A stretch of DNA of 64,000 nucleotides, from NCBI RefSeq assembly GCF_902459645.1, contig NZ_CABPSK010000004.1, forward strand, positions 248,001 through 312,000, in the 5' to 3' direction. The DNA comes from Pandoraea pneumonica. GTDB taxonomy: Bacteria > Pseudomonadota > Gammaproteobacteria > Burkholderiales > Burkholderiaceae. Shown piece by piece: positions 3,780 through 33,966 of this stretch. The stretch's first letter is position 1, and every line of letters begins with the position of its first letter. Below the pieces are notes generated by a model. It did no database searches. It saw nothing but the letters and a program-made list of their open reading frames with translations, and was not told the origin of the DNA. The position numbers and the translations under genes are program-made.

Positions 3780-3807
3780 GTCGGGAAGGATTTTCGAGTG
3801 AAGCCCG

Positions 3808-3813
3808 ATTATA
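3808..3813 (-). promoter_or_regulatory. -10 box of the uvrD promoter
   Basis: TATAAT reads on the minus strand about 30 bases upstream of the uvrD ATG. A hexamer GTTTTC lies 17 bases further upstream and is only a weak -35. Confidence 0.5.
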
Positions 3814-3849
3814 AATCCTGCTGCGGCGCGGAAAACGCCCCGAATCTTT

Positions 3850-3855
3850 TATAAT
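3850..3855 (+). promoter_or_regulatory. -10 box of the valS promoter
   Basis: A perfect TATAAT lies 35 bases before the valS ATG, divergent from the uvrD -10 box. No convincing -35 hexamer is present at the usual spacing. Confidence 0.55.
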
Positions 3856-3890
3856 TCAGGGTTTCACGCATTACACGGTCCATCCAATCC

Positions 3891-18016: not shown

Positions 18017-18020
18017 TGTG

Positions 18021-18055
18021 AAAAAGGCCCGTCGCGAAGTCATCCGCGACGGGCC
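18021..18055 (-). terminator. Terminator of the 13-gene catabolic operon
   Basis: An 11-bp stem GGCCCGTCGCG/CGCGACGGGCC (18026-18055) is followed on the minus strand by TTTTT (18025-18021). It lies 86 bases after the lyase stop. On the plus strand it lacks a T-run, so it serves the minus operon. Confidence 0.8.
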
Positions 18056-18141
18056 CGCCCACCAACGCGACCCACGTCACGCGCCGATACTTTCAGTGCC
18101 GCGCCCGCATCGATGCCTCGCGAGCGCCCCACACATTCCGC

Positions 18142-19005
18142 TTACTCGTACCGCTTCCCCTCTGCGAGCAATTCCGGCGTGCCGATCACAGCATTGAGTC
18201 CGTCGAAATCGAGCATGCGCTCACGCCATGCTGCCGTCGTGCCTTGCGTATGCAAATTGGCGTAATAGCCCTGCAACGTGTGCGCCACGGCACGCGCCGT
18301 GCCGCCCGGGAAGATGACGATCCGAAAGCCGATATCCGCCAACACCTGCGCACTTTGCACCGGGGTTTTGCCGCCCTCCACCATGTTGGCGAGCAACGGC
18401 ACACGTCCGGCGAAGCGTTTGCACGCCGCTTCCATCTGCTCCGTCGTGCGCAGCGCTTCGATAAACAACGCGTCCGCACCGGCTTCCAGATACTGCTCGG
18501 CGCGATCGAGCGCGGCGTCGAGACCTTCGACGGCCACCGCGTCGGTGCGCGCGAGAATGAGCGTCCGGGCATCGTGACGCGCATCTACGGCAGCGCGCAC
18601 TTTGCCCGTCATCTCCTGCACACTCACCACACCTTTGCCATCCAGATGCCCGCAACGTTTCGGGAACGTCTGGTCTTCCAGTTGAATCATCGCGGCCCCC
18701 GCGCGCTCGAAGCCGCGCACGGTGCGCTTGACGTTGAGCGCGTTGCCGAAGCCCGTATCGGCGTCGACGATCACCGGCACGGACACACGTTCCGCGATGC
18801 GCGCGAGTGTGTCTTCCACTTCCGGATATGTCGTCAGACCGATGTCCGAGCGACCCAGCCGGGTATAGGCAATCGACGCGCCCGAAAGATAAAGCGCTTC
18901 GAAACCGGCTTGTTCTGCGATCAGCGCCGACAAGGCGTCGTACACGCCCGGCGCGAGCAGCACGCCTTCGCCCAGCCGGTGTTTGAGAGATGACGACAGC
19001 GTCAT
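18142..19005 (-). CDS. Isocitrate lyase/PEP mutase-family C-C lyase
   Basis: This cytoplasmic enzyme of 287 residues has the isocitrate lyase/PEP mutase fold. The Mg-binding DADTGFG (residues 81-87) and the catalytic loop KRCGH (116-120) are present; the loop with its Cys marks lyases (isocitrate, methylisocitrate or dimethylmalate lyase) rather than PEP mutase. Family members split 2-hydroxy tricarboxylates or dialkylmalates into an oxoacid plus a smaller acid. Short length argues against isocitrate lyase itself. Its ATG overlaps the stop of the FAD-enzyme gene (ATGA), and it is the last gene of the operon, fitting the last, C-C cleaving step. The exact substrate is not known. Confidence 0.85.
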   Translation of the reverse strand: MTLSSSLKHRLGEGVLLAPGVYDALSALIAEQAGFEALYLSGASIAYTRLGRSDIGLTTYPEVEDTLARIAERVSVPVIVDADTGFGNALNVKRTVRGFERAGAAMIQLEDQTFPKRCGHLDGKGVVSVQEMTGKVRAAVDARHDARTLILARTDAVAVEGLDAALDRAEQYLEAGADALFIEALRTTEQMEAACKRFAGRVPLLANMVEGGKTPVQSAQVLADIGFRIVIFPGGTARAVAHTLQGYYANLHTQGTTAAWRERMLDFDGLNAVIGTPELLAEGKRYE

Positions 19006-20435
19006 TCGGAAATCTCCTTTGAATGGGGTACGGCAGTCACGCCGGACAACGCATCGATGGCCGTCTTCGCCGCGAGGTAACCGCCCGCGACCGCCGAGAG
19101 CAGCCCGTTACCGGACAAATAGCCCCACACGGCATTCCCTGACACGCCGCGTGCGGCCCCGCCTGCGGCGAGCAAATTCGGGAACGGCGTGCCGTCCGGG
19201 TGCAATACGCGGCATTGGGCATCGATATCGAGGCCGCCCTGCGTGTGAAACAGCGCGCCGGTGACTTTTACGGCGTAATACGGCGCATCCAGCGTGCGGG
19301 AAAAACGACGGCCGTCATTAGCAGTGACATCCGGTGCAATGCCCGCCAACGTCGCACGCAACGTCTGCACGTCGCATCCGATGAGGGCGGCAAGTGCATC
19401 GATATCGGCACATGTTTTGAGCGCACCTACGGCCTCGGCCTCTTGGAAATCGGGGAACGTGCGCGCCAGCGCCAGCGTCTGCGCATCGAACACATTCCAC
19501 GCGACACCCCCCGGCTGTGCCAGCACATTCACCGCCGCTTCGGAATAGCCGTGCGTTTCGTCGTGAAAGCGTTTGCCGTCGCGATTGATCTGTACGCCGC
19601 CATCCATGATGACGGCCCACGAAATCAGCACGCCGTGCGGCGATGCCCACGAACCATGCCCCTGATAACCGCCAAGGTCAGCCTGTGCCGCCCCCAGCGC
19701 TTGGCCCCAAAGGAGCGCGCTGCCGTCGTTGCCGTCGTGACCGCCGTAGACGGCTTGCGCCATTTCGGGCAGCAATTCGCCTCTCAGCGCGGCGTTACCG
19801 CCGAAGCCGTTGCAAGCGAGCAGCAGCATGTCACAGCCCAAATACTCCATCGCGCCGTCCGGGCGCACACCGCCCACGGCGCTCACGCGGCCGTCGTCGT
19901 CCACCCAGAGCTCGCGCACCAAGGTTCGCGTCAGCACCGGCGCATCGGTGGCCTGCACGGCGCGCTCAAGCGCGGCCATCAGCGCCGCGCCGGTACGCTC
20001 CGGCAGGCTATGCATGCGACGCACGCTATGCCCCGGGTACAAAAACCCGTCGAGAATTTCGAACTTCAGACCGTGGCGCGCCAAGGCGTCCATCGCTGGT
20101 CCTGACGCCCGCGCGTAGGCGTTCACCAGATGCGCGGCCGCCGTGCCTTCCGTCTTGCGCAAGATGTCGTGCGCGAACTGTGCCGGACTATCGTCGATAG
20201 CCGCCGCCCGTTGCGCCTCGCTGCCCGCCGCCGGGATAAAGCCCGACGACAGTGCTGTCGACCCGCTCGGCACGGCGTCGCGCTCCAGCAGCACGCAGTC
20301 GATTCCGGCGTCCTGCAAGACAAGAGCGGCCGTCAGCCCGCAAGCCCCCGCCCCCACGATCACCACGCTTAGCTGCGGCAAGTCGTCGACGGGCGGGCGT
20401 CCCTTGCGAATCACGGGTGCGAGCGGCGCGCTCAT
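19002..20435 (-). CDS. FAD-dependent oxidoreductase of the fumarate reductase/KstD/TcuA type
   Basis: The 477-residue product has an N-terminal FAD-binding motif, VGAGACGLTAALVLQDAG (GxGxxG at residues 28-33). It also has the succinate dehydrogenase/fumarate reductase-type substrate domain: GKRFHDE in the middle and ALFHTQGGLDID plus AAGGAARGVSGNAVWGY near the C-terminus. Relatives add or remove hydrogens across a C-C bond (fumarate reductase, 3-ketosteroid dehydrogenase, tricarballylate dehydrogenase TcuA). No signal peptide is seen, so it should be cytoplasmic. It overlaps its neighbours by four bases at both ends (ATGA), which indicates translational coupling with the isochorismatase-like and lyase genes. 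The substrate is unknown. Confidence 0.82.
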   Translation of the reverse strand: MSAPLAPVIRKGRPPVDDLPQLSVVIVGAGACGLTAALVLQDAGIDCVLLERDAVPSGSTALSSGFIPAAGSEAQRAAAIDDSPAQFAHDILRKTEGTAAAHLVNAYARASGPAMDALARHGLKFEILDGFLYPGHSVRRMHSLPERTGAALMAALERAVQATDAPVLTRTLVRELWVDDDGRVSAVGGVRPDGAMEYLGCDMLLLACNGFGGNAALRGELLPEMAQAVYGGHDGNDGSALLWGQALGAAQADLGGYQGHGSWASPHGVLISWAVIMDGGVQINRDGKRFHDETHGYSEAAVNVLAQPGGVAWNVFDAQTLALARTFPDFQEAEAVGALKTCADIDALAALIGCDVQTLRATLAGIAPDVTANDGRRFSRTLDAPYYAVKVTGALFHTQGGLDIDAQCRVLHPDGTPFPNLLAAGGAARGVSGNAVWGYLSGNGLLSAVAGGYLAAKTAIDALSGVTAVPHSKEISE

Positions 20436-21049
20436 GCTGCGATCCGGCCCGCGAAGGCCTCACAAGTGACGATCTCACCGACCGTGCGCAGATCGGCCAG
20501 CGCCGCGTCGTGTGCCGCCGGCGTCGGCGCGGCACAGCCGTCTGAGAGCACCAGCACGCGATAGTCGCGCATGTGTGCATCGCGCGCGGTGCTGGCCACG
20601 CCGCCGTTGGTCACGATGCCGCAGACCGCGACCGTTTCGATGCCCGCACGGCGCAACACCCAGTCGAGTTGCGTGTTGAAAAACGCCGAATACGCGACCT
20701 TCCACACCGAGACATCCACGTGTTCAGCGAGCGATGCGACCGTCGCGTGGCCCGTCGACCCGGCCACAAAATCGCCGCGCCGCAAAAACGGCCGCAGTTG
20801 TTTCAAATGGGGCGAGATCATCGGCTCGCCCTGCGCATCGGGCCAGAGAGTGAACTGGCTCGCGGCGACAAAACCGCCTGCCGACTTGAGCGAGCGTGCA
20901 ATTGGCGCAATACGCGCAGGCAGCGCCTGTGCCTGCGCCGTGGCAGCGCCGCCCCGGTCGTAAGCGCCGCCGGGGGTAATGAAATCGTTCTGCAAATCGA
21001 CGATGACGAGCGCGGTACGCGCGACATCGAGGGCGTTGGCTTGGCTCAT
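20432..21049 (-). CDS. Isochorismatase-fold protein lacking the nucleophilic Cys
   Basis: The 205-residue protein has the isochorismatase-like hydrolase fold, with the catalytic Asp18 in VIVDLQNDF and Lys117 in WKVAYSAFF. The third catalytic position, which is Cys in nicotinamidase, N-carbamoylsarcosine amidase and maleamate amidase (T-x-x-C-V), reads CGIVTNGGVASTARD, with Gly150 in place of Cys. True isochorismatases (EntB, PhzD) also lack this Cys. So the usual amidase chemistry cannot simply be assumed, and a vinyl-ether or other hydrolysis is possible. The start at 21049 is supported by a GGAG site seven bases upstream. It lies between hyuA and the FAD-enzyme gene in the operon. Confidence 0.82.
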   Translation of the reverse strand: MSQANALDVARTALVIVDLQNDFITPGGAYDRGGAATAQAQALPARIAPIARSLKSAGGFVAASQFTLWPDAQGEPMISPHLKQLRPFLRRGDFVAGSTGHATVASLAEHVDVSVWKVAYSAFFNTQLDWVLRRAGIETVAVCGIVTNGGVASTARDAHMRDYRVLVLSDGCAAPTPAAHDAALADLRTVGEIVTCEAFAGRIAA

Positions 21050-21077
21050 GACGTAGCTCCCGTGACTCGCATGGCGT

Positions 21078-23147
21078 TCACGCTTCGCGCGTGATGAGGA
21101 GGTTGCCCAGCGCGTCCACACGCCCCGAGAACCCCGGTTCGAGCCAAATCGTCGTGTCCGACTGCTCGAGAATCGCCGGACCGGCGACGCTTGCGCCCAC
21201 CGGCAAATCGAGACGGGCAAAACGTGCCGCGTCCCACCACTGCCCAGCGTGATAAACGCGCTGCGTGCCGAGCGACGACGGCATCTCAACGGCTTGCGGC
21301 GCCAGCACCCCGAGATCGAACTTCGGGCGCACACCGATGCGGGCATAGCGCAGATTCATGATGCGCACGGCAATGCCGTCGAGCGCGCGGCCAAAGGCTT
21401 CGCGATACGCGGTCTCGAACGCTTGCGCGATGCCCTCGCGATGCAGCGCCTCGCGCGCCACCGGCACACGCACCGTGTGGCTCTGGCCGACATAAAGCAT
21501 GTCGAGTTCGATGATTTCGCGCACGGCGTCGAAGCGCACGCCTGCCGAGTCGAGGCGTTGCTGACACGCGACCTGCAACGCTTCGACGCGCGCCACGAGG
21601 TCGTCCATATCGAGCGCCGCCAGCGGCTGGTTGAGCGTCTGCACGCTGTCGTGACGCATATCGGCAATCACGCAACCCAGCGCCGACGTCACGCCCGGAT
21701 AGCGCGGCACGATGCCGGTGGTGGTGCCCACTTCGCGCATCATTGCGCACACGTGCAGCGCGCCACCGCCGCCAAACGGCATATAGGCGAACTGGCGCGG
21801 ATCGTGGCCACGCTCGATCGACACCAGACGAATCGCCCCGGCCATCTTCGCGTTGGCAACCGTGAGAATCGCTTCGGCGGCCGCGTAGGCATCGATGCCC
21901 AGCGGTTCGGCCACGTGCTTACCGATGGCTTGTGCCGAAAGCCCGCTGTCGAGCTTGCCCAGCAAGCCGCCGCCCAGCGGACGGTCGGCAGCGATACGGC
22001 CGAGCAGCACATTGGCGTCGGTCACCGTGGGGCGAAGGTTGCCGCGCCCGTAGCACGCCGGCCCCGGAATGCTGCCCGCCGATTCCGGGCCAACTTGCAG
22101 CAGACCGCCTGCATCGACCGACGCAATCGAGCCGCCGCCCGCACCAATCGTTTCGATCTGAATCATCGGCGAGCGCACGACCATGCCGAACTCGATCGAC
22201 GTTTGCGCCGAGAGCGACGCCTCACCACCGGCCACCAGCGACACATCGAACGACGTGCCACCCATATCGCCCGTCACCACATTCGGAAAGCCCGCGGCGC
22301 GTGCGATGGCTGCACAAGCGATCACCCCTGCCGCTGGGCCGGAGAGTGCGGTGCGAACCGGTACATCGCTCGCCGTCTCGCGCGACATGATGCCGCCGTT
22401 GCTTTGCACGACCAGCAGTTCGCCGTCGAAACCTTGCGTCTGCAAATCACGCGCCAGACGCGTGAGATAGCCGCCGACCACCGGTTGCAGCGATGCATTG
22501 AGGGTCGCCGTCGAGCAGCGCTCGAACTCACGAATTTCGGGCAGCACTTCGGTCGCCGCCGTCACGTTGCCGTTGGGCCAGATCGCGCGCACTGCCGCCA
22601 CGGCGCGTTGCTCGTTGACGGGGTTAGCGTATGCATTCACGAAAAACACACAAACAGCTTCGCAACCAGCGGCAAGCAGTGCGCGGGCGGCCGCTTCCAC
22701 TTGTGCGATGTCGACGTCGGTGTGAATCGAGCCGTCGGCCAACACGCGCTCGTCGACTTCCAGACGCAGATCGCGCGGCACGATGGGGGTGAAGTTGCCG
22801 CGCAGCCCCCATGTGGCTGGCCGGTCGCGGCGGCGCATTTCCAGCACGTCGCGAAAGCCGGTCGTCGTGATGATGCCGGTGCGGGCCACCTTGCGCTCCA
22901 GCAGCGCGTTGGTGCCCACCGTGGTGCCGTGCACGATGGTGGCAATGGCTGCCGCACCGCCACGACCGGCCGATTCAACACGTTCGATACCGTTCATAAA
23001 ACCGCGTGCCTCTTCGCCACGCGTGGACGGCACTTTGACGATGCGCGCGACACCCGCCGCTTCATCGAGCACGAACAGATCGGTAAACGTCCCGCCGACG
23101 TCGACACCGACGACCAGCGAGGGGTTCGGGGTAGCTGCTGCGCTCAT
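21078..23147 (-). CDS. hyuA: Hydantoinase/oxoprolinase subunit A (ATP-dependent)
   Basis: This 689-residue protein is the ATP-binding subunit of hydantoinase/5-oxoprolinase enzymes, which use ATP to open cyclic imides, ureides or lactams, or in related forms carboxylate ketones. The actin/hexokinase-like signatures GVDVGGTFTDLFVLDE at the N-terminus and TGDMGGTSFDVSLV in the middle are intact, as is the NATLNAS-type STATLNASLQPVV segment. It overlaps hyuB by four bases (ATGA), so both subunits are made together, as is usual for the heteromer. The isochorismatase-like gene follows 28 bases later. N-methylhydantoinase or 5-oxoprolinase labels would go beyond the evidence. Confidence 0.88.
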   Translation of the reverse strand: MSAAATPNPSLVVGVDVGGTFTDLFVLDEAAGVARIVKVPSTRGEEARGFMNGIERVESAGRGGAAAIATIVHGTTVGTNALLERKVARTGIITTTGFRDVLEMRRRDRPATWGLRGNFTPIVPRDLRLEVDERVLADGSIHTDVDIAQVEAAARALLAAGCEAVCVFFVNAYANPVNEQRAVAAVRAIWPNGNVTAATEVLPEIREFERCSTATLNASLQPVVGGYLTRLARDLQTQGFDGELLVVQSNGGIMSRETASDVPVRTALSGPAAGVIACAAIARAAGFPNVVTGDMGGTSFDVSLVAGGEASLSAQTSIEFGMVVRSPMIQIETIGAGGGSIASVDAGGLLQVGPESAGSIPGPACYGRGNLRPTVTDANVLLGRIAADRPLGGGLLGKLDSGLSAQAIGKHVAEPLGIDAYAAAEAILTVANAKMAGAIRLVSIERGHDPRQFAYMPFGGGGALHVCAMMREVGTTTGIVPRYPGVTSALGCVIADMRHDSVQTLNQPLAALDMDDLVARVEALQVACQQRLDSAGVRFDAVREIIELDMLYVGQSHTVRVPVAREALHREGIAQAFETAYREAFGRALDGIAVRIMNLRYARIGVRPKFDLGVLAPQAVEMPSSLGTQRVYHAGQWWDAARFARLDLPVGASVAGPAILEQSDTTIWLEPGFSGRVDALGNLLITREA

Positions 23148-24859
23148 GCCTGTTGCTCCTTCGTTGCGTTGCCGGTGGTGGCTTGCTTGCCCACACCTGC
23201 GCTTTTCACCGCGTTTGTCACATACCCCATTGCCTGATCGTGTGCCCGTGCCTGCGCATCACGGCGGGCCGGGTCGCCGTACCCACCGCCGCCCGGCGTT
23301 TCAAGGCGAACGCGTTCACCACGTGCGAGCTTGATGCCGAGCATCTTCGAGGCCATCGGCGGCGTATGCCACTCGCCTTCGTTCTGATACTGAAAGACGT
23401 TCGGCACCGACGCTTCGCCACCGGCAATGCCCTGCGGGGCCGAGCGTCCGCGCTCGCCAAAGACGAAAGCTTCCGCGCTGTCTTCCAGCAGTTCGATTTC
23501 GTAAATAGCGCCTAAGCCGCCGCGATGCTCGCCGTCGCCCGCCGAATCGGGGCGCAGGGCCCATTGGGTAAATCGCACCGGATACGCGGCTTCCAGAATC
23601 TCGACCGGCGGAATCGTCGCCGTCGAAATCGGCGCGTTGCCGTGCGAGAGGCCATCGCCGTCGCTATGCCCGCCGTGGCCGCCGCCGAAGAAGCTGAACA
23701 TCACCCAACGCTGGCCTTTGCGCGCGGCGTCTGTGCGATAGCCCGCAATCGACAACGCGTTGATCGTGCCGTAGGCCTGCGCCATCGCCCGCTCGGGTGC
23801 GGCTTGCGCCATCGCGCAGAAGATCACGTCGATCATGCGCAGAATGGTTTCGGTGTAGCCGCCGACCGGACGCGGGCGTTGCGCCGAGATCAGCAGACCT
23901 TCGGGCAGTTCGAACTTCACGGCATCGAGCACACCGGCATTGGCCGGGACATCGGGGAACAGATGCTTGAGCGCGACATAGCACGCCGCAATCGCCGTGG
24001 CGCGCGAGATGTTGACGGGCCCCATGCAAGCCGGGGACGTGCCGGTGAAGTCCAGCGTCAACGTGTCGCCCGCCACGCGCATGCGTAGCGCAATGGTCAG
24101 CGGCACGTCACGCACGCCGTCGTTGTCGAGCGTGTCGCGATAGGTGTATTCGCCGTCGGGCAGCGCCGTCACATGGGCGCGCATGAGTTTCACGGCACGT
24201 TCGCGAAGCTGCGCCAGCGCGTCTTGCACGGTGCTGTCGCCATACTCGTCGAGCAGGTCGGCAAGGCGTCGTGCGCCGAGTTCCAGCGCCGCCAACTGCC
24301 CGTTCAGATCGCCCCAGAGGCTATCGGGCAAGCGGGTGTTCGCTTTGAGAATGGCCAACACGTCGGCATCGAGTTCACCGCGCCGGAGAATACGCACCGG
24401 CGGAATTTGCACGGCTTCTTGCCAGCATTCGGTCGCCGCCGGGTTGTAGTTACCCGGCACGGCACCGCCCACGTCGTGCCAATGTGCCGCCGATGCCAAG
24501 AAGCAATACAGCTCGCCGTTGCGAAACACAGGACGCACCAGCTTGAAGTCGTTGGCGTGGGTGCCGCCTTCGTACGGATCGTTGAAGAGCCACACGTCGC
24601 CCTCGACCATGCCGCCGCGCTCGGCAGCCGCGCGGGCCGCCGCCTGCACGGCGAAGGCCATGGCGCCGACGAAGACCGGCAGGCCCGACTTGCCTTGCAC
24701 GAGCGTGGCGCCGGTGGCGGCGTCGTAGATGCCGTGGCAGGCGTCGTGCGCTTCGGCAATGATCGGGTTGAAAGCACTGCGGTAGAGCGTCGCGTCCATT
24801 TCGTCGGCGATCTGCTCCAGCCGGCCCTTGAGGACCGCCAGGGTGACGGGATCTAGCAT
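23144..24859 (-). CDS. hyuB: Hydantoinase/oxoprolinase subunit B
   Basis: The 571-residue product matches the hydantoinase B/oxoprolinase family, with VTLAVLKGRLEQIADEMDATLYRSAFNPIIAE at the N-terminus (given here in part: LEQIADEMDATLYRSAF), the metal-region NDPYEGGTHANDF, and a C-terminal glycine-rich TPGGGGYGDP end. It forms the active enzyme with HyuA, encoded immediately downstream with a four-base overlap. The aconitase-like small-subunit gene ends at 24853, so these two genes overlap by seven bases. Nothing is missing compared with the family. The substrate is unknown. Confidence 0.88.
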   Translation of the reverse strand: MLDPVTLAVLKGRLEQIADEMDATLYRSAFNPIIAEAHDACHGIYDAATGATLVQGKSGLPVFVGAMAFAVQAAARAAAERGGMVEGDVWLFNDPYEGGTHANDFKLVRPVFRNGELYCFLASAAHWHDVGGAVPGNYNPAATECWQEAVQIPPVRILRRGELDADVLAILKANTRLPDSLWGDLNGQLAALELGARRLADLLDEYGDSTVQDALAQLRERAVKLMRAHVTALPDGEYTYRDTLDNDGVRDVPLTIALRMRVAGDTLTLDFTGTSPACMGPVNISRATAIAACYVALKHLFPDVPANAGVLDAVKFELPEGLLISAQRPRPVGGYTETILRMIDVIFCAMAQAAPERAMAQAYGTINALSIAGYRTDAARKGQRWVMFSFFGGGHGGHSDGDGLSHGNAPISTATIPPVEILEAAYPVRFTQWALRPDSAGDGEHRGGLGAIYEIELLEDSAEAFVFGERGRSAPQGIAGGEASVPNVFQYQNEGEWHTPPMASKMLGIKLARGERVRLETPGGGGYGDPARRDAQARAHDQAMGYVTNAVKSAGVGKQATTGNATKEQQA

Positions 24860-25461
24860 GAAGAAACTCCGTTAGGTGTCGCGTGAGATGTCGAACTGCG
24901 CTGCTTGAGCAGATTGAGCAGGCCGCCTGCGTCGACCATGTCGAGCAGGAAGCCGGGCACGTTCTCGCAAGCGAGGCGGCTGCCGTCGGCGCGTTCGATA
25001 AAGCCGTCGCGAGGTGCCAGCCGCAGGGTTTCGCCCTCGGCGATGCACTGCGCGTCGGCGCAGGTAAGCAGCAACAGCCCCACGTTGAAGGCGTTGCGGA
25101 AATAAAGACCGTTGAACGACGGCGCGATGACCGCGCGCACGCCCAGATGCACGAGCGCGGCGGCCGCCTGTTCGCGCGACGAGCCGATGCCGAAGTTCGG
25201 CCCGGCCACGAGGACGTCGCCCGGCTGGACCTGCGCGGCGAATTCGGGGCGCACGCGATGCAGGCAATGGCGGGCGATTTCATCGATGCCGAATTTCATA
25301 TAGGCACCCGGGGCGAGCGCATCGGTGTCGATGTCTGCGCCCACCACCCACGTGCGATGGACGGCGGCAAGTGCGTCGGAAGAAGACGTTGGCAATGTCA
25401 TGAGTGGGGTTGAAGAATCGGGTTCAAGCGCGGGTTCAGGCGCAAGTTCAGGCGAGGACAT
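24853..25461 (-). CDS. Aconitase-family hydro-lyase, small subunit (LeuD/DmdB-like)
   Basis: The protein of about 202 residues has the LeuD-like swivelling domain of two-subunit aconitase-family hydro-lyases: VVGADIDTDALAPG, then GPNFGIGSSREQAAAAL with the substrate-binding GSSR, and APSFNGLYFRNAFNVGL. The ATG at 25461 overlaps the large-subunit stop and gives a Glu/Pro/Ala-rich N-terminus made of short repeats. An ATG at 25401 would remove this extension and give 182 residues, closer to the family. Neither has a good ribosome-binding site. It pairs with the large subunit upstream to hydrate or dehydrate a small acid. Confidence 0.82.
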   Translation of the reverse strand: MSSPELAPEPALEPDSSTPLMTLPTSSSDALAAVHRTWVVGADIDTDALAPGAYMKFGIDEIARHCLHRVRPEFAAQVQPGDVLVAGPNFGIGSSREQAAAALVHLGVRAVIAPSFNGLYFRNAFNVGLLLLTCADAQCIAEGETLRLAPRDGFIERADGSRLACENVPGFLLDMVDAGGLLNLLKQRSSTSHATPNGVSSC

Positions 25462-26710
25462 CGCGCGGATCGGCAATGCGGCCCGTGAGCGCGGCAGCGG
25501 CCACCGCATAGGGCGAACCGAGGTAAACCTGCGCGGTCTCGGCGCCCATGCGCCCCTTGAAGTTGCGCGCGGTGCTCGACATCACAGTGGCCCCCTCGGG
25601 GATCGAGCCGCCATAGCCCGCGCAAGCGCCGCACGTATTAGCCAGCACTTGGGCACCAGCGGCCACCAGCACGTCCATCACGCCTTCGCGCGCGGCCTGT
25701 GCCTGATCGCGCGCCGAGGCCGGTGCCACGACGAAGCGCATACCGTCCGCAACGCGACGCCCCTTGAGCACTCGCGCCGCCGCGCGCAAATCTTCCAGCT
25801 TCGCGCCGGTGCATGCGCCCAGATACGCCACGTCGACGGGGATATCGGCAAAGGCATCGATCGAGCGCGTATTGGCAGGGCTATGCGGCGCGGCAACCTG
25901 CGGCGCGAGCGTACTGGCATCGAACGTGTGCACTTCGGCCTCGGCACCGGCGTCGCTCTGCCAGCGCTCGACGTCGATGGCGTCGGTAACACCGACCGAG
26001 CGCAAATAGTCGACGGTCGTCGCATCCGGCGCGACGAGGCCCACTTGCGAACCCAGTTCGGCGCTCATGTTCGAGAGCGTCATCCGCTCTTGCATCGACA
26101 GCGCGCGCACGGCTTCGCCGCAGAACTCGATGGCCTGATAGCGGCCGCCGTTCATGCCGAAGCGGCCGATCATGTGCAGCATCATGTCCTTGGCCGTCAC
26201 ACCGTCGGTCAAGCGCCCGTCCCAGCGCATTTGAATCGTCGAGGGCACCTTGACCCAGATTTCGCCCGACACCGCCACGCCCAGCATTTCCGTACTGCCG
26301 ATACCGAACATATAGGCACCGAACGCACCGCCGGTCGGCGAATGCGAATCGCCACCCACGCAGAACATGCCCGGGCGAAGATGCCCGTGTTCGGGCACAA
26401 CTACGTGGCAAATACCGACCGAGTCGTACACATTGGGCAGCGCCTGCGCTTGGGCCCAATCGCGGGCGATACGCACGATGCGACGCGATTCGTCGTCGGA
26501 TTCCGGCACGTAGTGGTCGATGACCAGCACGACCTTCGATTTGTCCCACAGTTGCGCGCCGAGCGATTCGAGCATCGGTTGCAGACGGCGCGGGCCGCTG
26601 GAGTCGTGAAACATCGCGAGATCGACCCGGCAGGTCACGATCTCGCCTACCGCTACTTCGGCCCGCCCGCAGGCGGCGGCAAGCAGCTTTTGCGTCAGAG
26701 TTTGCGCCAC
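25448..26710 (-). CDS. Aconitase-family hydro-lyase, large subunit (LeuC/DmdA-like)
   Basis: The 420-residue protein is the iron-sulfur subunit of a two-subunit hydro-lyase of the isopropylmalate isomerase, homoaconitase and dimethylmaleate hydratase group. The three cluster cysteines are present: C300 in LGACTGAKLEDL, and C360 and C363 in NTCGACAGYGG. The VGGDSHSPTGGAFGAYMFGIG block carries the substrate-site residues. A GTG at 26710 is chosen because it lies six bases after AGGGA and ten bases after the livF stop. Its place next to hyuBA and an isocitrate-lyase-like gene suggests a dedicated catabolic hydratase rather than leucine synthesis, since no leuA or leuB is nearby. Confidence 0.85.
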   Translation of the reverse strand: MAQTLTQKLLAAACGRAEVAVGEIVTCRVDLAMFHDSSGPRRLQPMLESLGAQLWDKSKVVLVIDHYVPESDDESRRIVRIARDWAQAQALPNVYDSVGICHVVVPEHGHLRPGMFCVGGDSHSPTGGAFGAYMFGIGSTEMLGVAVSGEIWVKVPSTIQMRWDGRLTDGVTAKDMMLHMIGRFGMNGGRYQAIEFCGEAVRALSMQERMTLSNMSAELGSQVGLVAPDATTVDYLRSVGVTDAIDVERWQSDAGAEAEVHTFDASTLAPQVAAPHSPANTRSIDAFADIPVDVAYLGACTGAKLEDLRAAARVLKGRRVADGMRFVVAPASARDQAQAAREGVMDVLVAAGAQVLANTCGACAGYGGSIPEGATVMSSTARNFKGRMGAETAQVYLGSPYAVAAAALTGRIADPRDVLA

Positions 26711-26720
26711 GGTAAGTCCC

Positions 26721-27431
26721 TTACATTCCGAGATAAGCACGGCGCAGCTCGCTGCTCGCGAGCAACTGCGCGCACGTGCCGCTGTGACGGATCGAGCCGT
26801 TCTCCAGCACGTAGCCACGCTGGCCGGTTTCGAGCGACTGCCCCACGTTTTGCTCGACGAGCAAGATCGACAGGCCATCGCGTTGCAAACGTGCGATCAG
26901 GGCGAACAGCTCTTCGACCATGAGCGGCGAGAGGCCCAGCGACGGCTCGTCGAGAATCAGCAGTCGCGGCTCGGCCATCAGCCCGCGTCCGATGGCGAGC
27001 ATTTGTTGTTCGCCGCCGGACATCGTCCCAGCAGGCTGTGCGATGCGCTCGCGCAGACGCGGGAACAGGTCGAGCATGCGTTCCAGACTGCGCTCGCGAT
27101 CGGCACGGCCTCGTGCGAACGCGCCCAGCGCCAGGTTTTCACGCACGCTCAAGTTCGGGAAAATGCGGCGTCCCTCGGGCACCTGAATCAACCCGGCCTT
27201 GACCACCTCGCGGTAGTGGCGGCCGGTCAGGTCGTGACCGTCGAAGCGCACGCGCCCCGCCCAGACCGGATTGATGCCCGAGAGCGTGTTGTTCAGCGTC
27301 GACTTGCCCGCACCGTTGCTGCCGAGCAGCACCACGATCTCGCCCTCACCCACCGTCAGGTCGACACCGCGCAGCACCTCCACGCGGCCATAGCCCGTGC
27401 GCAGGCCTTCGACTTCGAGCAAATGGCTCAT
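26721..27431 (-). CDS. livF: Branched-chain-type ABC importer, ATPase LivF
   Basis: The 236-residue ATPase has Walker A GSNGAGKST (residues 37-45), signature MSGGEQQML and Walker B LLILDEPSLGL. It belongs to the LivF subgroup of ATPases in importers for branched-chain amino acids, amides, aromatic acids and similar solutes. The ATG at 27431 overlaps the livG stop by four bases (ATGA); a longer upstream frame would lie within livG. It is the last of five importer genes and is followed after ten bases by the hydro-lyase large subunit, so transport and catabolism are in one transcript. Confidence 0.9.
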   Translation of the reverse strand: MSHLLEVEGLRTGYGRVEVLRGVDLTVGEGEIVVLLGSNGAGKSTLNNTLSGINPVWAGRVRFDGHDLTGRHYREVVKAGLIQVPEGRRIFPNLSVRENLALGAFARGRADRERSLERMLDLFPRLRERIAQPAGTMSGGEQQMLAIGRGLMAEPRLLILDEPSLGLSPLMVEELFALIARLQRDGLSILLVEQNVGQSLETGQRGYVLENGSIRHSGTCAQLLASSELRRAYLGM

Positions 27432-28213
27432 TGGGCACCTCCGGCCTGTGCAGCCTGTGCCGCATTTGCCGCCTGTGCAGCGAGCCGAGCCGCCGTGCCG
27501 TGGCCCAGATAGGCTTCGACCACGGCCGGATCGGACGTCACTTCCTGCGGCGTGCCCGCCGCGATCAGCTTGCCCTGCGCTAGCACCCACACGTGTTCGG
27601 CCAGACTCATCACGGCGCGCATCACGTGCTCGATCATGAGCACCGTCACACCGCTTGCCGCGATCTCGCGCACCACGGGAATCATTTCGTCGATCTCACT
27701 CGGGTTCAGCCCGGCGAGCACTTCGTCGAGCAACAACAAGCGCGGCCGGGTGGCCAGCGCACGCGCGAGTTCCAGACGTTTGCGCCCGCACACGGTGAGG
27801 TCTGCGGCCGGTTTGTCCAACTGCGCTTGCAGATTCGTTTGAACGGCGATCGCCTCGGCTTCGCGCAACGCTGCACGGCGATTGCCCTGATGGAGATGCG
27901 CGCCCACGGCGATGTTCTCGCGCACGGTTTGCGCGCCGAACGGCTGCACGATCTGGAAGGTGCGCGTGAGCCCCTGACGCGCCGTCACGAATGGCGCCTG
28001 CCCGGTGATGTCGCGCCCTTGAAACTCGACGCGTCCGGCCGTCGGCGTCAGAAACCCCGAGAGCAAACCGAACAGCGTGGTTTTCCCGGCACCGTTCGGC
28101 CCTACGAGCGCGGTGAGCGTGCCCGGCCGAATGCTCAGGCTGACATCCTGCACGGCCTTCAGGCCGCCGAACGTGATCGATAAACCCTCGGCTTTCAACA
28201 AGGCGTCAGACAC
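27428..28213 (-). CDS. livG: Branched-chain-type ABC importer, ATPase LivG
   Basis: The 261-residue ATPase has Walker A GPNGAGKTT (38-46) and Walker B LLLLDEVLAGLNPSE. The signature region reads LTVCGRKRLELARAL, a variant seen in many LivG proteins of Proteobacteria. A GTG start at 28213 is well supported by AAGGAG eight bases upstream, and it overlaps the livM stop by eight bases. The C-terminus carries an extra Ala/Gln-rich tail. It pairs with LivF to energise the importer. Confidence 0.88.
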   Translation of the reverse strand: MSDALLKAEGLSITFGGLKAVQDVSLSIRPGTLTALVGPNGAGKTTLFGLLSGFLTPTAGRVEFQGRDITGQAPFVTARQGLTRTFQIVQPFGAQTVRENIAVGAHLHQGNRRAALREAEAIAVQTNLQAQLDKPAADLTVCGRKRLELARALATRPRLLLLDEVLAGLNPSEIDEMIPVVREIAASGVTVLMIEHVMRAVMSLAEHVWVLAQGKLIAAGTPQEVTSDPAVVEAYLGHGTAARLAAQAANAAQAAQAGGAQ

Positions 28214-29255
28214 GGGCCTTCTCCTTACTTGCTGCGACGCTGCCGACGCTGTTGTCGCTTGCGCGGAACGTGCCGTCTGCGGGCGACTTGGCGCTGCCCT
28301 CTTTCCCCATCCCCAGCGCACGGCGCACCGAAGCCCCGGCGCCGGTAATGCCGCGCGGCAGGAACATCACGATCAGAATCAGCACCGCGCCGTAGATCAC
28401 CATCGAGAGGCCGGGCAACTCGCCGAACAGGTTGCGCGTGAGTTCGCCGAGCGTGTAAAGCGCAGCCGCGCCCAGCACCGGCCCCCACAACGTGCCCAGA
28501 CCGCCGACGATCACGCCCACCAGCGCCTCGACCGAAATGGTCGAACCGAACGCGATGCCCGCGTCGATGTACTGGAACATCTGCACATAGCAAACGCCTG
28601 CCGCACTCATGAACGCCCCCGACAACGCGATGGCACCGAGCTTCACGCGCAGCGGATTGACACCAACCGCACGCGCCGCGCTTTCGTTGTCACGCACGGC
28701 CTGCAACCACGCGCCAAAACGCGAATGGCGCAGCCATGCGGTGACCAGCAAGGCGCCCATCACGAACGTCAGCAACACGAACGCGTAGCCGCGCGGCGAT
28801 GCAAATTGCAGATTCCCGGCGCTTTGATGCAGCGGCACCATCAAGCCGACGCCCGCACCGGTGAACGGCAGCGAGACGGCGAGAATGCGAAACACCTCGG
28901 CAAACGCCAGCGTCACCAGCGCGAAGTACGAGCCTTTGAGGCCGTAGCGGAACGTCACGGCACCGACGACCACAGCGACGAGCGTGCCCATCGCAATCGC
29001 GAACGGCATCGCGAGCCACGGGTTCCATCCCCATTGCAGTTGCGCAATGGCCTGCGCGTAGGCCCCCACGCCGAAGAACAACGCGTGCCCGAACGACAGT
29101 TGCCCGCCAAAACCGCCCAGAATGTTCCACGACTGGGAGAGCAGCACGGTGTAGAGCGTCATCATCAGAAACGACAGCCAAACGCCCGACTGCAACGTCA
29201 CGAGCAACCCCGCGACGACGACACCGAACAGCACAATTAATCGAAGATCCTTCAT
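28206..29255 (-). CDS. livM: Branched-chain-type ABC importer, permease LivM
   Basis: The 349-residue inner-membrane permease has about nine to ten hydrophobic helices and the LivM hallmarks SWNILGGFGGQLSFGHALFFGVGAY near the N-terminus (in part: GGQLSFGHALFFGVGAY) and the cytoplasmic EAA-type loop VRDNESAARAVGVNPLRVK. The ATG at 29255 has GGAG six bases upstream and is preferred to a GTG five codons earlier. About 50 residues at the C-terminus are hydrophilic and rich in Ser and Ala, and are not usual for the family. The gene follows livH by about 30 bases. Confidence 0.88.
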   Translation of the reverse strand: MKDLRLIVLFGVVVAGLLVTLQSGVWLSFLMMTLYTVLLSQSWNILGGFGGQLSFGHALFFGVGAYAQAIAQLQWGWNPWLAMPFAIAMGTLVAVVVGAVTFRYGLKGSYFALVTLAFAEVFRILAVSLPFTGAGVGLMVPLHQSAGNLQFASPRGYAFVLLTFVMGALLVTAWLRHSRFGAWLQAVRDNESAARAVGVNPLRVKLGAIALSGAFMSAAGVCYVQMFQYIDAGIAFGSTISVEALVGVIVGGLGTLWGPVLGAAALYTLGELTRNLFGELPGLSMVIYGAVLILIVMFLPRGITGAGASVRRALGMGKEGSAKSPADGTFRASDNSVGSVAASKEKARV

Positions 29256-29285
29256 CGTTTGCTCCTGCACATGTCTGTAGGCTCC

Positions 29286-30158
29286 TTAGGCGCGCGCACC
29301 GAACAGCCCCTGCGGACGCAGCAGCACGACGATGATGAAAATGGCGAAGATGCCCATTTGGCCGAGCGAATCGCCGAGCCACAGGCCGCCGAGCGACTCG
29401 ACCACGCCGATGAGCAATCCGCCGACGAGGGCGCCGGTGAAGCTGCCCATGCCGCCGAGCACGACGATCGTGAATGCCACCAGCACGAAGCCGCCGCCGA
29501 CTTGCGGGTTGACGTAGTACGTCGGCAGCAGGAAGCACGCCGCCGCGCCCACGCAAGCCATGCCGATGCCGAACGACACCGCATACACGCGCTCCACGTC
29601 GATGCCCATGAGCTTCGCGCCGTGCTTTTCTTTGGCGACCGCACGAATCGCACGGCCGAGGTCGGTGGCTTGCATGATCCAGAACAGGATGGCGGCCGTG
29701 GCCAGCGCACCGCCGAAGGCAATCAGCTTCGGCACCGCCAACATGACCGGACCGATATCGACGGTGGCGAGCGTGTACGGCGTGTCGATGGTGTGGGTGT
29801 CCGACTTGAACCACACGAGCGCGAGATTCTCCAGCACGATGGCCAAGCCGAGCGTGACGAGCAGAATGTTCTCGTCCTTGCCGTGGCTCGCCCGCTCGAT
29901 CACCACGCGCTGCAACGCGTAACCGAGGGCAAACATGCCGAGTGTGACGAACGGCAGCGCCACGTAGGGGTCGATGCCCAGCTTCTCGCGCAGCAGCCAG
30001 ACGGCGTACAGCGCCACCATGAGCGCTGCGCCGTGGGCGAAGTTGATGATGTGCAGCACGCCGTAGACCAGCGTGAGACCGAGCGCGATGAGGGCATACA
30101 CCGCGCCGGTCGTCAGCCCGTTGAGCAGGGCCGAGAGCAGAATGACCGGGTCGAGCAT
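29286..30158 (-). CDS. livH: Branched-chain-type ABC importer, permease LivH
   Basis: The 290-residue permease shows the typical LivH start, LLSALLNGLTTGAVYALIALGL (in part: GLTTGAVYALIALGL), the NFAHGAALMVALY motif, and the EAA-like loop AIRAVAKEKHGAKLMGID. Eight hydrophobic helices are likely. It lies only four bases after the binding-protein gene and forms the transmembrane pore with LivM. Confidence 0.9.
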   Translation of the reverse strand: MLDPVILLSALLNGLTTGAVYALIALGLTLVYGVLHIINFAHGAALMVALYAVWLLREKLGIDPYVALPFVTLGMFALGYALQRVVIERASHGKDENILLVTLGLAIVLENLALVWFKSDTHTIDTPYTLATVDIGPVMLAVPKLIAFGGALATAAILFWIMQATDLGRAIRAVAKEKHGAKLMGIDVERVYAVSFGIGMACVGAAACFLLPTYYVNPQVGGGFVLVAFTIVVLGGMGSFTGALVGGLLIGVVESLGGLWLGDSLGQMGIFAIFIIVVLLRPQGLFGARA

Positions 30159-30162
30159 CGCG

Positions 30163-31374
30163 TCAGGCCTTGAGCGGGAAGACCGGGGCGACCTGGCGGT
30201 AGCTGTCCGGCAGAATCACCTTGATGTCGCCGCCTGAGACTTGCGTGAGCAGCGGCTGTGCGCCCGTGTTCTGACCGTTCACGAATTTCGTCGGGCCGTA
30301 GGGCATCAGGTGATCTTTGAACGTGCTTGCCGAGAGCGCTGCGGTGATCGCGGCGCGATCGACCGATTTGGCGTGCTCGATGGCGTCGGCCAGCAGCATC
30401 ATCGCCGTGTACGTCATGAAGACTTCGTAGCTGAAGAATGCGCCCTTGGCTTCCGTGCGCTTCTTGAGCGAGGCCACGCGGGCATCTTTCGGATTGAACC
30501 AGTGGTTGCAATCGATGATGCCGTCGGCAATGTCAGGGAATTCCTTCAAGAACTTGTAGCTCGATGCGGCACCGCCCAGCACCGAGTAAATCGCTTTCGG
30601 GCGGATTTTCTGTTGCTTCATCGCGCGCAGCAGCAGCGCGTACTCGTTGTAGTAGTTCGCCGGAATCACGATGTCCGGGTTCACCGAGCGCATACGCAGC
30701 ACGATGTTGTTGAAGTCGCGCGTCGGGTTGGCGTGCTTGATGACCTCTTTGACTTCGAAGCCACGTGCCGGCAGTTCCTTTTGCAGCAAAGCCGCCGTGC
30801 CCGTGCCGAAGAGCGACTCTTCGTGCACGATCATCACGGTTTTGGCGGGCTTGCCAGCGGCGTCGTTGAGCGCCGCCAGGTCGTCGACCGCGCGCATCGA
30901 GCACATGCGATATCCCGGGCCGAAGCGGAACGTATTCGTGAGACCGCGCTCGACGATCTGATCGGCGACGCCCACATCCACCACGTGCGGCAGGCCGTAT
31001 TTCGCCGCCGTTTGCGTCGTCGCGAGACAAATGGCCGACGCGTACGCGCCGACGATCGCCGAGACGCCCGCTTCGTTCATCTTCTCCACTTCGGCCGACC
31101 CGGCTTCCGGACGCGACTGTGCGTCGCCGAGCACGGCTTCGATCGGCGCGCCGCCGAGCGACTTGATGCCACCGGCGGCGTTGATATCTTCGATGGCGAG
31201 CAACGCACCGAGGCGGCACTGCTGGCCCGAATAGGCGAGCGCACCGGTGACCGGGTGCAGCACGCCGATCTTGATCGGCTTACCGGCGGCGCGCGCGGCC
31301 CAAGGCGCGGTGGTGGCGGCGGCAAGCGCGGCCAGGGCGGTGGACTGACGCAGGAACGTGCGACGCGAACTCAT
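30163..31374 (-). CDS. livK: ABC importer periplasmic binding protein with Tat-like signal
   Basis: The 403-residue product is a type I periplasmic binding protein of the Leu/Ile/Val-amide family. The N-terminus SSRRTFLRQSTALAALAAA carries a twin-arginine motif (SRRTFLR) and a hydrophobic stretch ending at ARA, so export by the Tat route is likely; the mature protein begins near GKPIKIGVLHPVTGALAYSG. The ATG at 31374 has GGAG about eight bases upstream. It is followed by livH and preceded by gntR. The family takes up amino acids but also amides, urea, aromatic acids and dicarboxylates, so ligand identity is open. Confidence 0.88.
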   Translation of the reverse strand: MSSRRTFLRQSTALAALAAATTAPWAARAAGKPIKIGVLHPVTGALAYSGQQCRLGALLAIEDINAAGGIKSLGGAPIEAVLGDAQSRPEAGSAEVEKMNEAGVSAIVGAYASAICLATTQTAAKYGLPHVVDVGVADQIVERGLTNTFRFGPGYRMCSMRAVDDLAALNDAAGKPAKTVMIVHEESLFGTGTAALLQKELPARGFEVKEVIKHANPTRDFNNIVLRMRSVNPDIVIPANYYNEYALLLRAMKQQKIRPKAIYSVLGGAASSYKFLKEFPDIADGIIDCNHWFNPKDARVASLKKRTEAKGAFFSYEVFMTYTAMMLLADAIEHAKSVDRAAITAALSASTFKDHLMPYGPTKFVNGQNTGAQPLLTQVSGGDIKVILPDSYRQVAPVFPLKA

Positions 31375-31441
31375 GGACGATTCTCCGGGCTTAACAAGGG
31401 TCGGCAAGGGTCAGCAGGGGAAAGCAAGGGCAAGCAGTGAA

Positions 31442-32239
31442 TCAGTGGAATTGCGCGGATAGTTCTTCGCTGACCCAGACCTTGGCGTCGATGTCGCCAA
31501 CGCGCGAGAGCTGAAGCTGGTACTGGTAGCGATCGGGGCGATACAGGCCTTGCAGCAGTTGCACCGGGCGGTCGGCAACGTCGCGCACGAGGCGCGTGAC
31601 CGCGAGCAACGCGGAGCCGACGGCAATGTCGAGATGGCGCGCTACGACGGCATCGGCCAGACGCGCAGAAATGGTTTGGGTCGCGCCGCCGAGCTCGACA
31701 CCGGCCTCTTCGAGGAGCATGAGCAGCGGCTTGCGCTCGAGTTCTTCGCGATTGATTTGGGCAATGCCCTCGGGCACGTGCGTCGTGATGTACGAGAGCG
31801 GTCCGGCCTGCGTGCTGCGCACACGAATGCTCTTGTAGACCGGCGCGCCTGGGGCGAGCGCGAGGGCGTCGGCCACGGCGTCGCTGGCCCCGACCAGTGA
31901 CGATTCCAGCACCGACACGGTGGTGCGCAAACCCATATTGACGATGTTCTCGAGCAGGCCCGTGAGGTGTGCCTTTTCGCGCGAGATGCCTGCCATGGCA
32001 CCGCCGGTGCGTTGCCCGGCATGCAAGGGCCAGGTGCCTAGCCCCGGGCGCCGGATCACGAGTCCGTCAGCCACGAGCATTTCCATGGCCTTGCGAATCG
32101 TGATGCGTGCGACACCGAACTGATCGGCCAGAAGATGTTCGCCCGGCACACCGTCCCGGTCGAAACGCCCCTCCTGCAATTGTTCGCGCAGCACGAGGTA
32201 GATCTGGTGGTACTTCGGAAGCGGTAGTGGGGTATCCAT
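31442..32239 (-). CDS. GntR/HutC-family transcriptional regulator
   Basis: The 265-residue protein has an N-terminal winged helix of the GntR type (about residues 8-75, with DQFGVARITIRKAMEMLVADG as the recognition region, in part: GVARITIRKAMEMLV). A UTRA ligand-binding domain follows (from about residue 95), as in HutC and PhnF. It is the first gene of the operon; livK follows 67 bases later on the same strand. Family members usually repress their own operon and are released by its substrate or a pathway intermediate. The ATG has no visible ribosome-binding site and lies only six bases from a possible -10 box, so a leaderless message is possible. Confidence 0.86.
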   Translation of the reverse strand: MDTPLPLPKYHQIYLVLREQLQEGRFDRDGVPGEHLLADQFGVARITIRKAMEMLVADGLVIRRPGLGTWPLHAGQRTGGAMAGISREKAHLTGLLENIVNMGLRTTVSVLESSLVGASDAVADALALAPGAPVYKSIRVRSTQAGPLSYITTHVPEGIAQINREELERKPLLMLLEEAGVELGGATQTISARLADAVVARHLDIAVGSALLAVTRLVRDVADRPVQLLQGLYRPDRYQYQLQLSRVGDIDAKVWVSEELSAQFH

Positions 32240-32245
32240 GCGGCG

Positions 32246-32274
32246 ATTCTGGAAGTGTCATAATGTCCGGTCAA
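32246..32274 (-). promoter_or_regulatory. Candidate promoter of the gntR-liv-catabolic operon
   Basis: TTGACC (32274-32269) and CAGAAT (32251-32246) are spaced by 17 bases and face gntR. The start of transcription would fall at or next to the ATG. The -35 is contiguous with the 31-bp dyad. Confidence 0.45.
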
Positions 32275-32304
32275 TAGAACAAATGGACAGACAAAATGTC
32301 CTAT
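32274..32304. promoter_or_regulatory. 31-bp dyad, copy A (operator at the gntR promoter)
   Basis: Arms ATAGAACAA and ATGTCCTAT are separated by 13 bases; seven of nine positions pair. The same layout, with flanking GTCA on the left and CGGGAAA on the right, recurs at 33936-33966. The copy abuts the -35 hexamer of gntR, the place expected of a repressor site. Confidence 0.6.
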
Positions 32305-32376: not shown

Positions 32377-32411
32377 CATGCGGCGCAGCATTTTCGATGC
32401 TGCGCCGCATG
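32377..32411 (-). terminator. Strong hairpin after the porin gene
   Basis: A perfect 15-bp stem with a five-base loop (32377-32391 with 32397-32411) lies 15 bases after the porin stop. It lacks a T-run on the minus strand, but four T follow it on the plus strand. It is a likely transcript end or 3' stabiliser for the porin message. Confidence 0.55.
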
Positions 32412-33907: not shown

Positions 33908-33936
33908 ACTCTAGGAGCGCCAATTTGTAGCGTCAA
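33908..33936 (-). promoter_or_regulatory. Candidate promoter facing the porin gene
   Basis: TTGACG (33936-33931) and TAGAGT (33913-33908) are spaced by 17 bases on the minus strand, and the -35 overlaps dyad copy B just as at gntR. The sequence down to the next ATG resembles the gntR promoter. Confidence 0.4.
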
Positions 33937-33966
33937 TGGAACAAATGGCGCGCGCAGTTGTTCTAT
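33936..33966. promoter_or_regulatory. 31-bp dyad, copy B
   Basis: Arms ATGGAACAA and TTGTTCTAT are separated by 13 bases, with eight of nine positions pairing. Arm length, spacer length and flanks equal those of copy A at 32274-32304. Confidence 0.6.

Follow-up and report, generated by a model that had tools for sequence, protein, structure and literature searches.

What would a soil bacterium do with thirteen same-strand genes that join a branched-chain-type importer to an aconitase-like hydratase, an ATP-dependent ring-opening enzyme, an isochorismatase-fold protein, an FAD oxidoreductase and a PrpB-like lyase? This question is raised by an operon in a 64,000-nucleotide stretch of the Pandoraea pneumonica contig NZ_CABPSK010000004.1 (the window). 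Based on protein families, gene pairing and conserved residues, we read the operon as a candidate inducible system that would let the cell grow on a small cyclic imide (or near-related cyclic amide), and give this reading a probability of about 0.52. A first-pass annotation of the same DNA had proposed that a ring imide, lactam or polycarboxylate is opened or oxidised, hydrated and split. Its outline of a single catabolic unit that opens a ring, hydrates a C=C bond and cleaves the product to pyruvate (or glyoxylate) plus an acid remains supported, but its analogy to dimethylmaleate breakdown is disfavoured.

The operon runs along the minus strand from the GntR regulator (32239) to the stop of the lyase gene (18142), and all thirteen genes carry the domains that had been named for them. 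First is a GntR/UTRA regulator (31442..32239; Pfam GntR and UTRA), followed by a LivK-type periplasmic binding protein (30163..31374; Pfam Peripla_BP_6, with an alternative upstream TTG start at 31407), LivH- and LivM-type permeases (29286..30158 and 28206..29255) and LivG- and LivF-type ATPases (27428..28213 and 26721..27431). LivH, LivG and LivF were named from their sequences and conserved order (tblastn conservation) with no family scan; for LivM, the UrtC and LivM models fell below cut-off and conserved order was used. Next come the large subunit of an aconitase-superfamily hydro-lyase (LeuC/HacA-like; 25448..26743, start uncertain; PRK00402 at 528.6 bits, equivalog models below cut-off) and its small subunit (LeuD/HacB-like; 24853..25461; TIGR02087 over cut-off). 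The HyuB-type (23144..24859; Pfam Hydantoinase_B) and HyuA-type (21078..23147; Pfam Hydantoinase_A) subunits of the ATP-dependent cyclic-amide hydrolase family precede the isochorismatase-fold protein (20432..21049; Pfam Isochorismatase), a fumarate-reductase-like FAD_binding_2 oxidoreductase, here FADox (19002..20435; domain and model scans, structure-sequence comparison), and the PrpB-like lyase (18142..19005).

The short overlaps reported earlier at many junctions were confirmed from the reading frames, with 4–14 bases at seven of them (LivM/LivG 8, LivG/LivF 4, LeuC/LeuD 14, LeuD/HyuB 7, HyuB/HyuA 4, isochorismatase/FAD 4, FAD/lyase 4). Gaps separate the genes at four others (GntR/LivK 34 or 67, depending on the start chosen, LivK/LivH 4, LivH/LivM 30, HyuA/isochorismatase 28), and the length of the LivF/LeuC junction was left unassigned because the LeuC start is uncertain. 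The one terminator described at the end of the operon is real and strong (18020..18062; dG −32.4 kcal/mol, z −6.9, with 0/200 shuffles as stable, and missed by a consensus scan), but it sits beyond the lyase at 18062-18020 on the minus strand, outside the interval in which it had been placed.

In the pathway we propose, a neighbouring porin and the ABC importer would take up the cyclic imide, the FAD enzyme would desaturate reduced (succinimide-type) rings, and HyuAB would open the ring with ATP. The isochorismatase-fold protein would then complete ammonia release from the maleamate-type half-amide, or would hydrolyse the anhydride formed by such half-amides; in this most speculative step, the substrate's neighbouring carboxylate would replace a missing Cys. 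Finally, the two-subunit Fe-S enzyme would hydrate the substituted maleate, and the PrpB-like lyase would cut the hydroxy-acid to pyruvate and an acid. No such pathway was found in the literature searched, with searches that were not aimed at the whole gene set and one of which was swamped by general terms.

Conservation separates a fixed core from the rest of the operon. A profile search of named genomes gave at least 540 relatives at E 1e-3 or better (including other LeuC-type proteins), of which the best 80 were kept. Loci were considered complete if at least 9.9 kb before and at least 8 kb after the hydratase gene were present (55/80), and the other 25 were left out of complete-locus counts. 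The LeuD-type subunit and the lyase each occur in all 55 complete loci, so that LeuC, LeuD and lyase are kept together in 55/55, and GntR occurs in 50, the Liv permease in 38, and HyuA, HyuB and the isochorismatase-fold protein in 31 each. HyuA and the Cys-less isochorismatase-fold protein were found together 33 times among the 80 loci and never apart. The co-occurrence of hydratase, HyuAB and lyase, which the first-pass annotation had proposed to examine, thus holds for hydratase with lyase (55/55) and for HyuAB with the isochorismatase-fold protein (33/33), but HyuAB itself is exchangeable.

Within the genus, the hydratase is accessory, with a match of at least 91% identity in 15 of 32 genomes (the 5.85 Mb genome of the window and 31 others); seven named Pandoraea records among the matches are 92–96% identical to it. 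All thirteen genes and the porin are present in the same order in 7/7 same-genus loci (20-kb stretches; 7 of 14 relatives), with the porin match in two pieces in L033. Among the same-genus genomes without the operon hydratase is G003, which spans only 1.2 Mb, has a completeness rating of 100% and is possibly a reduced symbiont.

The residues of the core point to the kind of acid it may handle. In the large subunit, Cys 311, 371 and 374 (numbering of this frame) lie at Fe-S ligand places, and the three Cys are present in 82/82 loci examined; the Ser and Arg of the hydratase GSSRE motif are present in 80/80 covered loci. The small subunit has Lys55 (201-aa frame translated from 25458) in a YMKF loop, conserved wherever a LeuD match was present (80/80, from 82 loci examined) and aligned to Arg of the solved homoaconitase 2pkp, Val of 3vba and Thr of 1v7l (in an alignment shifted by one). 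In homoaconitase, the loop Arg meets the distal carboxylate of homoaconitate. That this small-subunit loop sets substrate preference is stated in excerpts of PMC7308503. Archaeal-type homoaconitase and isopropylmalate isomerase thus share the superfamily and Fe-S Cys with the operon enzyme, and the solved homoaconitase a basic loop residue; unlike them, the operon hydratase falls below the homoaconitase equivalog cut-offs (HacA 359.4 vs 550, HacB 126.6 vs 230), and no lysine or leucine synthesis genes are among the thirteen.

The lyase resembles PrpB of the methylcitrate cycle in its KRCGH loop, acidic metal-site residues and Arg238, and pyruvate would be expected as a product, but it is under the PrpB equivalog cut-off (301.6 vs 354.4 bits, TIGR02317) and 41–43% identical to over-cut-off PrpB of six genomes. 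The motif and Mg site of PrpB are described in excerpts of PMC11982470, and the KRCGH Cys is present in 70/70 covered members (3 more are not covered). In general, the operon enzymes fall short of the curated cut-offs for specific known enzymes. Arg238 is also found in six over-cut-off PrpB, is replaced by Gln in one paralogue (L226) and is absent from the lyases at L038, L039 and L041, where the LeuCD pairs are distant, which hints that it binds a third carboxylate. Together, hydratase Lys55 and lyase Arg238 suggest that the substrate is a maleate with a methyl and a carboxyalkyl group, and because of these two residues a third carboxylate is likelier than a plain dialkylmaleate.

This corrects the dimethylmaleate analogy, and dimethylmaleate is disfavoured as the substrate. 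The Eubacterium barkeri nicotinate pathway, from which the analogy came, uses the dimethylmaleate hydratase DmdAB and the dimethylmalate lyase Dml. Like that pair, the operon couples a two-subunit aconitase-type hydratase to a lyase of the isocitrate lyase (ICL) superfamily; unlike it, the operon has a different ring opening and residues suggesting an extra carboxylate, in a comparison made via solved structures. Among these, the enzyme named 2,3-dimethylmalate lyase (3fa3) scores below PrpB against the operon lyase (162.8 vs up to 196 bits). Separately, five loci (L038, L039, L040, L041 and L045) carry distant LeuCD-type pairs (33–40% identical), three with other ICL-superfamily lyases, and look like further uncharacterised hydratase-lyase systems.

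Hydantoinase_A and Hydantoinase_B domains on adjacent genes place HyuAB in its family, and the best matches of HyuA in the Protein Data Bank are N-methylhydantoinase and 5-oxoprolinase, then acetophenone and acetone carboxylases. In its partner, the fold and the triad residues Asp and Lys are those of the cysteine amidohydrolases NicF, RutB and BiuH (Asp18 33/33 and Lys117 33/33 in HyuAB loci); unlike in those enzymes, the RutB-type Cys place is taken by Gly150, in 33/33. Because the catalytic Cys is absent, this protein is not an ordinary amidase. EntB and PhzD, which also lack the Cys, hydrolyse a vinyl ether and offer an alternative parallel. Because maleamic acids cleave their own amide, faster in dialkyl derivatives, a maleamate-type substrate could itself supply the nucleophile. 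This cleavage proceeds via the neighbouring carboxyl group, as described in excerpts of PMC3913492. A Cys-less isochorismatase-fold partner of HyuAB could represent a new mechanism within a well-known fold.

The ring-opening module in front of the core varies. The HyuAB and Cys-less isochorismatase-fold front end occurs in 33/80 loci (Pandoraea, Paraburkholderia, Achromobacter, Schauerella, Variovorax, Acidovorax, Polaromonas), and a PuuE/NodB-type front end in 20/80 (Caballeronia hypogeia, Burkholderia sp. SRS-W-2-2016 and many freshwater Comamonadaceae), the best curated model for the latter being the allantoinase PuuE, below cut-off. HyuA and PuuE-type genes co-occur in 0/80 loci within the stretches seen. 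A hydantoinase/allantoinase-like protein forms the front end in one Polaromonas metagenome-assembled genome (MAG), L080, and no ring-opening gene was found in 14 complete loci (Bordetella, Advenella, two Caballeronia, Ramlibacter monticola and others). TctC-type binding proteins are present in 12 of these 14, as expected if such loci import the opened acid. A quick LeuC tree implies 5 changes of the HyuAB label, of which starred branches force at least 3; many branches of the tree are weak and those to paralogues are long, so nothing but this count was used, and the labels are rough (the distant paralogue L043 is labelled PDA, and incomplete loci are perhaps mislabelled core). In that tree, the hydratase of L102, a record titled as a Singulisphaera (Planctomycetota) MAG, sits on a short branch among Limnohabitans-type ones and is probably from a contaminant contig.

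PuuE-type units have their own amidase. An isochorismatase-fold amidase with the Cys, 77–81% identical to that of L036, is present in 10/10 PuuE-type genomes searched (of 20 such loci; seven Comamonadaceae, two uncultured betaproteobacteria and C. hypogeia), and a PuuE-type protein 77–82% identical to that of L036 in 9/9 of those genomes searched for it. The nearest solved relatives of this amidase are 4l07 (an unnamed hydrolase), N-carbamoylsarcosine amidase and 3ot4/3uao, the last being NicF, a maleamate amidohydrolase, according to excerpts of PMC5806882. A fungal NodB-type imidase followed by a half-amidase, HxnM-HxnN of nicotinate breakdown in Aspergillus nidulans, is described in excerpts of PMC9304392 and resembles the operon in opening an imide and then hydrolysing the half-amide; unlike the operon, it uses a NodB-type imidase (as in the operon's relatives) and not HyuAB, and its acid is 2-hydroxyglutarate, without a hydratase-lyase core. 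One further L036 query (2873-4234, called PrpD1) had no Pfam match and looks like a false reading frame, and its matches were not used.

An 18-base operator common to HyuAB and PuuE-type units links these modules. In the window it lies before GntR (TGTTCTATTGACCGGACA, 32264..32281, minus strand), overlapping a −35-like TTGACC (32274-32269), and it is conserved in relatives' loci: with at most one mismatch, it is found 22–27 bp before GntR in 32/33 HyuAB-type loci, the exception being L128, which is cut off before GntR. It is present in 16/20 PuuE-type loci, mostly just before LivK and beside a divergent PuuE-type gene, and once upstream of the amidase-imidase (Cys-amidase/PuuE) operon in 10/10 genomes; two further matches, in L081 and L092, fall within the PuuE-type gene. 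Allowing up to one mismatch, the 80 loci (1.48 Mb) contain the consensus TGTYCYATTSANNGRACA 55 times vs 0 for the reversed pattern, a control that shows no more than a low background because the pattern was drawn from some of the same loci. Considering the conservation of the site, GntR probably represses through TGTYCYATTSANNGRACA (predicted binding), and we argue from the common operator that HyuAB and PuuE-type modules answer to related effectors. A Burkholderiales catabolic system of this kind, with a fixed core, exchangeable ring-opening modules and one operator linking them, had no description in the literature searched.

FADox follows the ring-opening genes. Taking at least 85% coverage as intact, it is present in 38/55 complete loci, comprising 38/41 with a ring-opening gene (HyuAB 28/31, PuuE-type 9/9, L080 1/1) and 0/14 without one. 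Because FADox accompanies ring-opening genes and not the bare core, its substrate is more likely the ring form than the opened acid. His260, Tyr297 and His397 are found in 56, 57 and 56 of 58 members, with the rest uncovered. Against tricarballylate dehydrogenase (TcuA), the parallel drawn in the first-pass annotation, FADox scores far under the cut-off (119.3 vs 369 bits), and it is 24–28% identical to five over-cut-off TcuA. With TcuA and flavocytochrome c3 it shares the FAD_binding_2 fold, and two of its residues, His260 and His397, align with His of flavocytochrome c3; unlike in the latter, Tyr297 occupies the position of the catalytic Arg, Arg402 of flavocytochrome c3, which is the residue altered in 1jrz. 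Judged from this alignment, Tyr297 may be better suited to a desaturase than to a reductase. Loss of the fumarate-reductase Arg is not used here to prove that the substrate is neutral, since the TcuA comparison (about 25% identity) gave no trustworthy columns. FADox remnants of 10–13% were seen in L054 (16285-16428) and L056 (16253-16435), from Pandoraea communis and Paraburkholderia sp. CNPSo 3272, and FADox was not found in L058 (Paraburkholderia sp. BL9I2N2); in all three, the HyuAB-type unit is otherwise complete.

Several observations weigh against a cyclic imide. Relatives of HyuAB act on hydantoins, lactams and carboxylase substrates. The catalytic Cys is Gly in every HyuAB-type isochorismatase-fold protein (33/33), and excerpts of PMC5806882 report that the Asp-Lys-Cys triad is conserved in BiuH and that a Cys-to-Ser change abolishes activity. 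FADox is not always needed, because it has been lost in three loci (L054, L056 and L058), all of HyuAB type. TctC is also present in 6/31 complete HyuAB loci. The operator was not found in 4/20 PuuE-type loci nor in 24/27 remaining loci, several of them incomplete. An Asp/Glu/hydantoin-racemase-type gene in a Limnohabitans cluster fits hydantoins, and the MmgE/PrpD, PhyH, SnoaL, SDR and AtuA genes of relatives are unexplained.

Some of these points would suit a ureide route, which we consider unlikely. Here, a substituted hydantoin or cyclic ureide would be opened by HyuAB (or a PuuE- or hydantoinase-type enzyme) to an N-carbamoyl acid, an isochorismatase-fold carbamoylase would release CO2 and ammonia, the FAD enzyme would oxidise the amino acid, and the acid would enter the core. 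N-Methylhydantoinase as the best solved HyuA relative, the ureide enzymes PuuE and AllB, the closeness of the PuuE-type amidase to solved N-carbamoylsarcosine amidase, one of its nearest such relatives, and the racemase-type gene all fit. However, the amino acid must lose ammonia to give the C=C of the hydratase, and no ammonia-lyase is among the thirteen genes; the window's isochorismatase-fold protein is without the Cys used by the amidases of the fold, and the FADox score with the L-aspartate oxidase model is far too low for its cut-off (62.6 vs 452.75 bits).

The missing Cys would instead be accommodated by an enamide or lactam route resembling anaerobic nicotinate breakdown, in which HyuAB opens an unsaturated lactam, the Cys-less protein hydrolyses an enamine as isochorismatase does a vinyl ether (the EntB/PhzD parallel), and a DmdAB/Dml-like core receives the product as dimethylmaleate or a related compound. 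Of the curated models, caprolactamase scores best with HyuA, below cut-off (CapA, 503 bits vs 1000), and an amidohydrolase replaces HyuAB in L080. We find this route improbable: no mutase or isomerase for dimethylmaleate was found in a search confined to the thirteen genes, the loop Lys (80/80 covered) and lyase Arg point to a third carboxylate, and the Cys-bearing PuuE-type amidases fit half-amides better. Very improbable is a tricarboxylate route, in which an acid resembling methylaconitate or homoaconitate is the substrate of the core, while an oxoproline-like lactam of that acid is dealt with in a side step by HyuAB and the isochorismatase-fold protein: it would suit the core-only loci with TctC, Arg238 and Lys55, but the genome already has a separate PrpB over cut-off (438.1 bits), and ring opening appears central where present, because of the strict HyuA-isochorismatase pairing and the operator shared with imidase-type genes.

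Returning to the cyclic-imide reading, the third carboxylate hinted at by Lys and Arg makes hematinic acid imide and its dihydro form candidate substrates. Both carry a methyl and a carboxyethyl substituent on the imide ring and arise when haem and chlorophyll are oxidised; hematinic acid imide comes from haem and chlorophyll rings, and dihydrohematinic acid imide from the reduced chlorophyll ring. The unit would then complete tetrapyrrole breakdown, taking in hematinic acid imide and, via the FAD desaturase, dihydrohematinic acid imide, with the Cys-less protein as a substrate-assisted deamidase or anhydride hydrolase and the triacid methyl-homoaconitate passing via methyl-homoisocitrate to pyruvate and glutarate. 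We consider this bolder version unlikely. If a tetrapyrrole-derived maleimide were the substrate, the operon would provide a genetic handle on the return of the last haem and chlorophyll nitrogen rings to central metabolism.

Upstream of GntR on the same strand lies a Gram-negative porin (32426..33592; Pfam Porin_4), probably a co-regulated neighbour. About 334 bp upstream of its start is an operator-like site (TGTTCCATTGACGCTACA, 33926..33943, minus strand) with one mismatch to the narrow consensus and two to the broad, identical in its letters in 7/7 same-genus loci scanned. The operator pattern matches the window twice at up to 3 mismatches, compared with a mean of 0.26 in shuffles, 3/100 of which reach 2. 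Between porin and GntR, a hairpin at 32377..32411 (strand undefined, listed as plus by the scan) probably ends the porin transcript, assuming a role on the minus strand.

Across 20 genomes, a scan at up to one mismatch gave 48 operator sites, 27 of them at the cluster, including all 17 perfect ones (in 15/20 genomes). The other 21, all one-mismatch sites away from the cluster, compare with 6 for the reversed control, an excess that is not fully explained. Of nine distant sites inspected, six are inside a reading frame, and no distant regulon members are claimed; one distant site recurs in three genomes within DNA that is itself conserved. The window genome's own distant one-mismatch site (G000:C3:665020-665037; L186 1501-1518) is about 330 bp before a protein that looks, by sequence, like a GGDEF-type membrane protein.

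Some relatives depart from the usual layout. Limnohabitans sp. Rim11 has a much larger cluster around the core (L149 10750-19264, L150 284-13556), with four PuuE-type, two isochorismatase-fold, racemase-type, PhyH, SnoaL and MmgE/PrpD genes; its SDR and AtuA genes were named from relatives in the same protein clusters. Paraburkholderia L056 and L057 have two GntR copies, with an operator-like site before each in L056, and both have a member of an MFS-like protein family (F35), while a LivKHMGF match was found in neither. In the window, a −10-like CAGAAT before GntR (32251-32246, minus strand) ends just 6 bases ahead of the ATG (32239-32251), and because of this spacing the GntR message may be leaderless.

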